From Bacteroidia bacterium (lineage in GTDB: Bacteria > Bacteroidota > Bacteroidia > UBA4408), in NCBI GenBank assembly GCA_023262495.1, contig JALRAS010000004.1, positions 1 to 40,634 on the forward strand: 40,634 bases of DNA, in the 5' to 3' direction. The translations under genes were made by a program, and so were the position numbers. Below, piece after piece: positions 27,917 through 30,848 of the stretch. A model generated the notes under the pieces. The model made no database searches. It was not told the origin of the DNA and worked only from the letters and a program-made list of their open reading frames with translations. How positions within the stretch are numbered: position 1 is the first letter of the stretch; every line of letters starts with the position of its first letter.

Positions 27917-28849
27917 ATGTTAAGCAACAAAGCTTTTTTTAGGATTCTTTTGCTTGTATTTTTATGCAAGTGTATAGGAAACACTATGCTGTACGGTCAA
28001 AACAACTGGACATTTTCTCTAAGTGTGATTACAAAAGATCTTGAAACAAAGAAGCAGATTTCCGGAGCGCAGTTAATTATCATCGATAAAAACACCAATG
28101 TTAGGGTACATTCAGCTTTAAGCAGTGCTGAACAACAAATCAAACTAAATCTTGAGCCCGGAAAAGATTACATATTGCGTATTTCCAAAGATGGCTACGT
28201 AAATAAAAACATTTCAGTGAGCACCAAAAACGTTCCTTATAATGATAAATCTACTCCGAGCTATATATTCGAGGTAACTACCGATATTTTCACAGAAGAA
28301 CCGGATGAAGATTACAGTGCTTTCAGACCTGCTTTTGGTATGATATTGTATAACCAAACAAAAAAAGATTTTGTTTGGATGCCCAACGAGGATGCGAAAA
28401 AGAAAGAAGAAGAAATAAAGAAGCGCAGAAAAGACAAGCGCAATGATGAGGATAATAATGAGAAAAAAAATCCTAAAGAAGCGGGTAAGAAGCAGCTTGA
28501 AAATTTGAATAGTAATAAATCTGAGGCTATGAAAAAAGCCATAGATAATGATAAACGTAGGCGAGAAATGGAAGAATACCGCAAGTTTTTAAAAGAAGAG
28601 TCTATGTCATCTTTAAAGTTAGATTTCAATGAGCCCAAACTAATTTACGTGAATTTGATACAAACCGAAACCATTGAACACAGAAATCATATTGTTACTG
28701 AAACTAAAGTTACATTTGATGCCGGCAAGAAAGTAGTTTACCGGAAAATAGTTTTTGAATGGGGCGGAACATATTATAAACAAGATGAACACGACCTTAC
28801 CGATGTTACCTATGATTTATTAATGCGCATCATTGTGCCCAAACAATGA
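27917..28849 (+). CDS. Exported protein with carboxypeptidase-regulatory-like domain and charged helical region
   Basis: I do not recognise a named family. The 310-residue protein has an export signal (residues 1-28, ending LYGQ). A beta-sandwich of the carboxypeptidase-regulatory/PEGA type follows (about 32-122, KQISGAQLIIIDKN, LEPGKDYILRISKDGY). A very charged, probably helical or disordered stretch covers about 158-228 (KKKEEEIKKRRKDKRNDED). A C-terminal beta-rich ~80 residues contains ETKVTFDAGKKVVYRKIVFEWGG. The order resembles exported Bacteroidota proteins of the gliding/type IX environment, but there is no direct evidence for that. It stands alone between the PurF-like gene and the dcw regulatory gap. 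Confidence 0.7.
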   Translation: MLSNKAFFRILLLVFLCKCIGNTMLYGQNNWTFSLSVITKDLETKKQISGAQLIIIDKNTNVRVHSALSSAEQQIKLNLEPGKDYILRISKDGYVNKNISVSTKNVPYNDKSTPSYIFEVTTDIFTEEPDEDYSAFRPAFGMILYNQTKKDFVWMPNEDAKKKEEEIKKRRKDKRNDEDNNEKKNPKEAGKKQLENLNSNKSEAMKKAIDNDKRRREMEEYRKFLKEESMSSLKLDFNEPKLIYVNLIQTETIEHRNHIVTETKVTFDAGKKVVYRKIVFEWGGTYYKQDEHDLTDVTYDLLMRIIVPKQ

Positions 28850-29265: not shown

Positions 29266-29300
29266 TCCCACCTGCCAAATTTTTCATCCATTATTTCCCA
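29266..29300 (-). promoter_or_regulatory. Second, inverted MraZ-box-like cluster
   Basis: On the minus strand TGGGA (29300-29296), TGGAT (29290-29286), ATTTG (29280-29276) and TGGGA (29270-29266) fall on an exact ten-base grid. The outer two are perfect boxes. The orientation is opposite to the main cluster, whose nearest box starts about 120 bases downstream. Confidence 0.45.
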
Positions 29301-29420
29301 CAACAGACAAAATCAGGTCAATTTTTCTTAAAAACATGGTTGCAAGGGCGTTTTATAACCCCTTAAGCTCCAAAAAAACTAATCGCAAACAGCTGTAAAT
29401 CAAAAAGTTTTCAACAAAAG

Positions 29421-29445
29421 TGGGAAATAATGGTAAAATGTGGGA
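29421..29445 (+). promoter_or_regulatory. Probable MraZ operator: three ten-base-phased TGGGA-type boxes
   Basis: TGGGA (29421-29425), TGGTA (29431-29435) and TGGGA (29441-29445) are each separated by exactly five bases. This is the architecture bound by MraZ in E. coli (TGGGN repeats with N5 spacing). The last box lies 40 bases before the mraZ start, so autoregulation of the dcw cluster is likely. The boxes lie upstream of the weak -7-like TAATTTTA at 29456. Confidence 0.7.
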
Positions 29446-29485
29446 AATATTTCCATAATTTTACCGCGATCAAAAAAAACAGGCC

Positions 29486-29965
29486 TTGTACCAACTTTTA
29501 GGAACATACGAATGCACAGTTGATGCGAAAGGAAGAGCGATGCTTCCTGTTGCATTCAAGAAAGCATTGACTGCTGTTCTCGACAAAGGATTTGTATTGA
29601 AGCGCAGTGTATTTGGGTCATGCCTTGAATTGTACACCATGGATGATTGGCAGCGCACGAAGAAAGATGTGGACAGACTCAATCGATTTAAAAAAGAAAA
29701 CATAGAGTTTATCAGAGCTTTTTCTGCAGGATTAAAGTCCATAGAAATTGATGCAAGTGGAAGATTGTTGCTACCAAAAGATTTGATGGCTTTTGCAGGT
29801 ATTACCAAAGATGTTGTGATGAGTGTAACCTCCAACAACATCATTGAAATATGGGATAAGAAGAAGTATGAAGATGCTGTGAATATTCCTAACGAAGACT
29901 TTGAGAATTTGGCAGAAAGGGTAATGGGAAGTTTAGGAAATAAAGAGGAAGGTGATGTATCATAA
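29486..29965 (+). CDS. mraZ: Transcriptional regulator MraZ, TTG start
   Basis: MraZ is a ring-forming DNA-binding protein that represses its own dcw operon. The 159 residues hold two AbrB/SpoVT-like halves, with the DAKGR (13-17) and DASGR (89-93) motifs each followed by LP-type ends (RAMLP, RLLLP). The start is TTG 29486. An in-frame stop at 29456 and no other start codon between them leaves this as the only way to keep the conserved GTYECTVDAKGR strand; the next ATG (29542) would cut it off. Three phased boxes lie just upstream. It overlaps rsmH by 11 bases. Confidence 0.92.
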   Translation: MYQLLGTYECTVDAKGRAMLPVAFKKALTAVLDKGFVLKRSVFGSCLELYTMDDWQRTKKDVDRLNRFKKENIEFIRAFSAGLKSIEIDASGRLLLPKDLMAFAGITKDVVMSVTSNNIIEIWDKKKYEDAVNIPNEDFENLAERVMGSLGNKEEGDVS

Positions 29966-30848
29966 TCCTGTGCTGCTGAAAGAAAGTGTGGAGGGATTAA
30001 ACATCAAAAGCGATGGCCTTTATGTAGATGTAACTTATGGAGGCGGTGGTCATTCGAGGGAGATTTTAAAGCATTTGACTACAGGAAAACTATATGCTTT
30101 TGATCAAGATGATGATGCTTTTGCCAATAGAATAACTGATGAAAAACTAATACTGATTAAACAAAACTTTAGGTACATGAAAAACTTTTTGAAGATGTAT
30201 AACGCACTACCGGTTGATGGCATTCTTGCCGATTTGGGCGTTTCATCTCATCAGTTTGATGAAGGTACTAGAGGATTCAGTACCAGGTTTGAAGGTGTGT
30301 TGGATATGCGTATGGATCAGTCGGGAAAAGAAACCGCAGCAGATATCATCAATCATTATGAGGAACAAGCACTCATTAAAATTTTTAGTGAATACGGAGA
30401 GGTTGAAAATAGCAAACGCCTTGCTGCCTGTATTGTAAAAGAAAGAGCAGTAAAGCCAATAAAAACCACGGAAGAATTAAAGCAAGCAATCATCAGTTGC
30501 ACACCTAAAATGAAGCCACAACAATACTTGGCAAAAGTGTTTCAAGCGCTTCGTATTGCGGTTAATCGCGAGCTCGATGTACTTCAAGAATTTTTAATGC
30601 AATGCACAGAAGTGTTGAAACCCAGTGGTCGTTTAGCTGTGATTTCTTACCACTCATTGGAAGATCGCTTGGTAAAAAATTTCATTCGCTCAGGAAACTT
30701 CGAAGGCAAAGTAGAACAGGATTTTTATGGTAATAAGTTGGTCAACTTTAAAGCAGTAAACAGGCAAATTATTACACCTAGTGAAGCAGAGCTGACAGAC
30801 AACAGTAGGTCGCGCAGCGCCAAATTACGCATAGCAGAAAAACTATAA
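29955..30848 (+). CDS. rsmH: 16S rRNA m4C1402 methyltransferase RsmH (MraW)
   Basis: RsmH methylates N4 of C1402 in 16S rRNA. From ATG 29955 it has 297 residues (GTG 29952 is an alternative). It begins MYHNPVLLKESV and shows the SAM-binding VDVTYGGGGHSREIL, FDQDDDA, ILADLGVSSHQFDEGTRGFS, ALRIAVNRELDVL and ISYHSLEDRLVKNF, all family hallmarks. A purine-rich AGAGGAAGG (near 29944-29952) precedes the start, which overlaps the end of mraZ by 11 bases, so translation is probably coupled. Confidence 0.95.
   Translation: MYHNPVLLKESVEGLNIKSDGLYVDVTYGGGGHSREILKHLTTGKLYAFDQDDDAFANRITDEKLILIKQNFRYMKNFLKMYNALPVDGILADLGVSSHQFDEGTRGFSTRFEGVLDMRMDQSGKETAADIINHYEEQALIKIFSEYGEVENSKRLAACIVKERAVKPIKTTEELKQAIISCTPKMKPQQYLAKVFQALRIAVNRELDVLQEFLMQCTEVLKPSGRLAVISYHSLEDRLVKNFIRSGNFEGKVEQDFYGNKLVNFKAVNRQIITPSEAELTDNSRSRSAKLRIAEKL

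Follow-up and report, generated by a model that had tools for sequence, protein, structure and literature searches.

Upstream of mraZ, with which the division and cell wall operon begins, the bacterium analysed here carries two rows of MraZ-type boxes that face in opposite directions. The pair of rows recurs across the Bacteroidia, and the distance between the rows changes in helical steps. We consider it probable that the row facing away from mraZ (the opposed row) is an auxiliary MraZ operator, which would form, together with the row next to the gene (the sense row), a helically phased repression loop of the lac and gal kind. From the sequences we infer three things: binding of both rows by MraZ, formation of a loop by the complex, and repression by looping. 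Positions are those of the window, i.e. the whole stretch of 40,634 nucleotides that was analysed.

The mraZ locus and its sense row

The gene adjoining the sense row encodes MraZ (29486..29965, + strand, with a TTG start; PF02381, E 2.7e-22). It heads the division and cell wall operon and is followed by rsmH/mraW as the second gene (29952..30848, +; PF01795, E 9.1e-98), an FtsL-like gene and a PBP gene, which is the usual order. On its 5' side, and separated from it by a long gap of ~640 bp, lies a gene (27917-28849) for a secreted-looking protein of 310 amino acids with a lysine/glutamate-rich middle and no Pfam match.

The sense row, GTGGGAAATAATGGTAAAATGTGGGAA, occupies 29420..29443 on the + strand and consists of three boxes with a 10-bp period: GTGG at 29420, ATGG at 29430 and GTGG at 29440. 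A preliminary description of this DNA had placed three TGGGA-type boxes on a ten-base grid before mraZ, and these are indeed there, as TGGGA at 29421 and 29441 and TGGTA at 29431. TGGGA is not enriched in the window (45 occurrences against 63.9 expected), so single TGGGA boxes carry no weight and it is the row that counts as evidence. Direct GTGG boxes at 10-bp steps just 5' of mraZ are widespread: a pair at spacing 10 is found in 133 of the 159 loci described below, and a three-box row in most of them. Across the four genomes of the genus the sense row is nearly identical, and the flanks past the operator hardly align. The probable -7 element of the proximal promoter, TAATTTTA (29456..29463, +), lies 36 bp past the first base of the row; the commonest position of TAnnTTT in the 159 loci is likewise +35/+36 from the sense row.

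The opposed row in the window and its genus

The candidate opposed row lies at 29284..29303 on the - strand, with inner boxes CCAC (29298-29301) and CCAT (29288-29291). GTGGGAAATAATGGATG starts at 29301 on the - strand and reads away from mraZ; another TGGGA lies at 29270. The distance between the rows, D, measured from the inner CCAC of the opposed row (29298) to the first GTGG of the sense row (29420), is 122 bp, in keeping with the inverted cluster some 120 bases upstream that had been described; on this geometry the DNA between the rows, 29302..29419, would form the loop.

The preliminary description had drawn a - strand grid of four positions, with two perfect TGGGA boxes and one near match. 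TGGGA is present at 29296-29300 and 29266-29270 and TGGAT at 29290-29286, and there is no box at 29280. The opposed row thus exists, and it is really a row of two boxes, since only the inner ones recur in relatives. The outer TGGGA box (29266..29271, -), at the fourth grid position, is possibly incidental, because relatives conserve no third or fourth box.

With a matrix trained on sense rows, the opposed row of the window scores 14.5; in a far-upstream control region, only 2 of 155 loci score 10 or more. The observation is confirmed as real and beyond chance. Within the genus, opposed rows occur at D = 122 in the window and at 121 and 122 in L004 and L006; one of the three congeners, L005, has none. 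Conservation of the upstream cluster, by which the preliminary description had proposed to judge it, is partial within the genus: the opposed row is kept in two of three congeners and the sense row is near invariant.

Recurrence across the Bacteroidia

Our sample comprised 159 loci, made up of the mraZ upstream DNA of 151 genomes of the class (7 from the small order of the window genome and 144 others) and 8 named loci. Of 184 genomes with an mraZ match, 150 were used, plus one from a separate collection, and orientation was set by the MraZ N-terminus. Eight of twelve named loci were used: L007-L009 were dropped as their upstream DNA is the same as that of L004-L006, and L016 as it had too little. 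The loci carry 56 family labels, each of the eight named loci being counted as its own label. An opposed row was called where the matrix learned from sense rows scored at least 10 at 60-320 bp upstream.

An opposed row reached this score in 65 of 158 loci; far upstream the figure was 2 of 155, and for a second row facing the same way as the sense row it was 1 of 158. The motif thus has a second, distant copy in 65 of the 159 loci, and these span 29 of the 56 family labels; the other 94 lack one by matrix score, including whole families (e.g. f20 and f52). When the matrix was applied at wrong spacings, 14-21 loci reached the score, matches that we think come from one strong opposed box lifting the score. 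Between -420 and -85, 52 of 159 loci have a CCAC pair at spacing 10, and pairs at spacings 6-9, 11, 12 and 14-21 are found in 0-5 loci each; spacing 13, found in 12 loci, is tentatively attributed to rows that end in CCACCAC. A same-orientation GTGG pair at spacing 10 occurs in 1 of 159 loci in that region, and spacing-10 CCAC pairs in 3 loci between -1250 and -500. The preliminary description had proposed looking for the pair of clusters in related genomes, and many do have it: it occurs under 29 of the 56 family labels and also in a second class.

The opposed row has exactly two boxes, not three or four, compared with three in the sense row, which suggests a weaker, auxiliary site. In the 159-locus set there is no -7 element at the sense-row spacing on the opposed row's own strand, where the sense row has its TAnnTTT at +35/+36. 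The letter that follows GTGG (+4; G or T) covaries between the two rows (rho 0.54 over 55 loci; rho 0.53, p 0.006, over 25 families), pointing to one reader protein for both, and base composition could contribute to this covariation.

Two further readings of the boxes were rejected. For a hairpin or cruciform, the rows of the window have 14 bases in common, but at other loci the boxes are preserved and the spacers between them vary. Spacer identity between rows is 0.71 within species and 0.61 when permuted, a residual similarity of the kind that shared composition and a common reader protein would produce. As for additional MraZ rows in the window's own genome, there are four exact matches to the sense pattern, with AT-rich spacers only at mraZ; a reversed control pattern matches as often, so we claim no wider MraZ regulon.

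Distance between the rows

In the Bacteroidia, D peaks near 64, 75, 87, 98 and 120, in steps of ~11 bp, with 108 found in another class. When D is anchored on the three-box matrix, the values cluster at 73-77, 85-88 and 96-100 with almost none in between; a cruder anchoring gave spurious values of 107-114 in family f19. For the phase statistic each family contributed each of its distances once (n=29, D 60-131). At a period of 11.4-11.45 bp the mean resultant R was 0.69, against 0.54 at 10.5 and 0.36 at 10.0, and with the period left free p stood at the simulation floor (2.5e-4 under a uniform null, 2e-4 under a smoothed one). The fitted period, 11.3-11.6, is above 10.5. We rejected an artefact of the 10-bp box grid as the source of the phase, because R is only 0.36 at 10.0 against 0.69 at 11.4; choosing another box would shift D by 10, not 11.

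A second set of loci came from a phase-blind scan of 396 genomes of the class for an opposed pair together with a sense row. This gave 43 matches: 22 already in the first set, 13 new mraZ loci and 8 that we left out of the mraZ count (seven had no MraZ start downstream, and G167:C13 was judged by its likeness to G210). Twelve of the 13 new loci pass the score, with D of 99, 100, 98, 97, 88, 75, 98, 98, 120, 97, 64 and 120; G203 was dropped (score 6.3, D 106). With period and phase preset from the first set, the mean cosine over the 12 loci was 0.87, 0.87 and 0.86 at 11.0, 11.2 and 11.4 bp (p ~5e-6 or less at 11.0-11.4) and 0.73 at 10.5. Three of these 12 distances were corrected by hand for mraZ lying on the opposite strand, and p was 1e-5 before the correction. 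Seven of the twelve have a D already seen in their family; the other five, with a new family or a new distance, give p of 4e-4, 5e-4 and 2e-3 at 11.0, 11.2 and 11.4.

Over both sets, 30 of 34 deduplicated D values fall within lattice windows of 4-5 bp that were drawn after seeing the data, and 102, 104, 112 and 130 lie off the lattice. Distances also shift by ~11 within families (f10, 87/96; f9, 87/97-98; f3, 75/85; f11, 86/97/120), which is the pattern predicted if only indels of whole turns survive. The helical phasing that a looping operator should have is thus found at D up to 131 bp and is weak beyond. Larger values (138, 139, 146, 149, 168, 178, 198, 200, 214, 263, 294 and 297) are not clearly phased, and R drops to 0.53 over 60-330 bp.

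A draw of 198 genomes of the phylum, mostly from other classes, yielded one further family (f88) with the pair of rows. Its five genomes (L202-L206) all have D = 108, before an MraZ start and in phase. Between their opposed and sense rows lie a TTGACA element and TGTGGAAAACTTTTT, and the f88 promoter seems to lie before the sense row. Since TTGACA precedes the sense row there, the lattice would hold relative to the row despite a different placement of the promoter, in this one lineage.

Elements between and beside the rows

Where an opposed row is present at D of at most 131, 12 of 51 loci (7 of 19 families) have the motif TAnnTTTG, which we take to be the -7 consensus of the Bacteroidota, at -62 to -20 of the sense row; of the loci that lack an opposed row, 0 of 81 (0 of 32 families) have it. 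The contrast, which omits 13 loci with middling scores, has p 4.4e-4 by family, and shuffles expect ~2 in each group. Loci with the element between the rows include L004, L031, L034, L036, L045, L060, L091, L132 and L139, among others. Because it occurs there only in loci with an opposed row, loops may serve to silence two promoters in some species. The second start site far upstream that had been suggested would fit such relatives; the window genome itself has no TAnnTTTG at -62 to -20 of the sense row, and its congener L004 has one.

Directly 5' of the sense row of the window lies a DnaA-box-like element, TTTTCAACA (29408..29416, +). TTWTNMACA is found within 22 bp of the sense row, in either orientation, at 128 of the 159 loci, whereas background windows give 2.5 on average. 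At least one TTWTNMACA is present in 9 of 26 usable dnaA upstream regions, and looser matches number 14 in 9.8 kb of dnaA upstream DNA compared with 11 in 32 kb of coding DNA.

Alternative explanations

The opposed row might be the operator of a divergent upstream gene, with MraZ controlling both neighbours. The upstream gene in Bacteroidia is often divergent, and its promoter would have room: a crude ORF caller gave 128 divergent and 29 co-directional neighbours in 157 called loci (of the latter, L067, L118 and L149 look spurious, and the genus of the window, L020, L035, L039 and L109 look sound). On these crude calls, however, the opposed row is no commoner with divergent neighbours (52 of 128) than with co-directional ones (13 of 29). 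The divergent neighbours are, by eye, unrelated and vary by family (hydrolase, RuvB, GTPase, aminotransferase), TAnnTTTG on the opposed strand mostly lies 77-129 bp from the inner box and not 35, and the upstream gene of the window is co-directional and ends ~400 bp away. With no link to a divergent gene and no -7 element in register, we regard this reading as unlikely. On the sequence evidence the opposed row goes with mraZ and not with the neighbour, because there is no divergent excess, the neighbours are varied and TAnnTTTG is out of register.

MraZ on the opposed row could instead work independently of the sense row, activating or silencing through contact with RNA polymerase, in which case the phase would be relative to the promoter. 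The -7 element is nearly fixed after the sense row, so the phases of row and promoter are inseparable within the Bacteroidia; outside them, the lineage of f88, from another class, has its TTGACA before the sense row and yet its D of 108 fits the row-to-row lattice. The opposed row is also far upstream for direct contact with polymerase, and we think this explanation unlikely. It is very improbable, in our judgement, that the kind exists elsewhere and the row of the window is a chance or decayed match to it. The degenerate second box (ATGGAT) and the loss of the row in L005 speak for such a match; the rarity of a score of 10 in the background and the two congeners with D = 121 and 122 speak against it.

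Proposed mechanism

In the repression loop that we favour, MraZ on the three-box sense row, a row that overlaps the mraZ promoter, would cover the stretch 5' of the -7 element and repress mraZ. The same MraZ would also hold the two-box opposed row, 64 to ~122 bp upstream, and the DNA between the rows would be bent into a small loop of ~6-11 turns. Through the loop the opposed row would raise local concentration, and looping would strengthen the operon's autorepression; a second promoter might also be enclosed in some species. Ring oligomers could bridge two rows, and a two-fold symmetric bridge would favour the opposed orientation. Looping had been raised in the preliminary description, and the ~11-bp helical phase between the rows supports it; looping itself we infer.

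More tentatively, and with slightly less than even confidence, we propose that MraZ may be a looping repressor across the Bacteroidota, in which a ring or a pair of rings bridges the rows and indels between them have been retained only as whole helical turns. A second promoter would be trapped inside the loop in some species, and the DnaA-box-like element next to the sense row could link the switch to replication.

Relation to known systems

The auxiliary looping operators of lac, gal and ara are alike in having two sites for one oligomer, at operator distances near 90-210 bp. They differ in that MraZ has another protein fold, each MraZ site is a row of 10-bp repeats and the target is the division operon. 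In vivo, lac loops are reported to oscillate with a helical period of ~10.9 bp (PMC1831498), close to the 11.0-11.5 of the mraZ loci.

Repression by MraZ is reported in E. coli and M. genitalium (PMC8475190). The E. coli mraZ operator (MraZ boxes; Eraso 2014) likewise has a row of boxes in 10-bp steps ahead of mraZ; in K-12 they stand at -43, -33 and -23. Unlike the window genome, K-12 is without an opposed row, because no CCCA occurs in the ~600 bp of mraZ upstream/intergenic DNA. The Mollicutes site, (AAAGTGKN3)3 (Fisunov 2016), shares direct repeats with a GTG core at 10 bp, and octamer binding is reported; in the accessible part of the paper (PMC5282649) it is a single row, and an opposed auxiliary row goes unmentioned. 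In Burkholderia cenocepacia the site has four direct repeats with a 10-bp period, in one row 3' of the -10 box, and again the portion available mentions no opposed row (PMC7761207). MraZ structures have been solved (1n0e, 1n0f, 1n0g, 9qlg, 9r4j, 9sx6, 9sz7 and 9qlr). The titles and opening lines of abstracts returned by searches of the open-licence literature describe no second or opposed MraZ row and no MraZ looping. Auxiliary looping operators are a known kind; one that serves MraZ and the division operon appears to be new within the open-licence literature searched.

Significance

The ring form of MraZ has been puzzling, as one short row could satisfy one ring. With a second row at a phased distance, the ring would have a function, that of bridging DNA. 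The lattice of distances is a natural experiment on loop geometry, with a period close to that of lac loops in vivo. If the proposal is true, regulation of the division operon across a whole phylum would be a looping switch.
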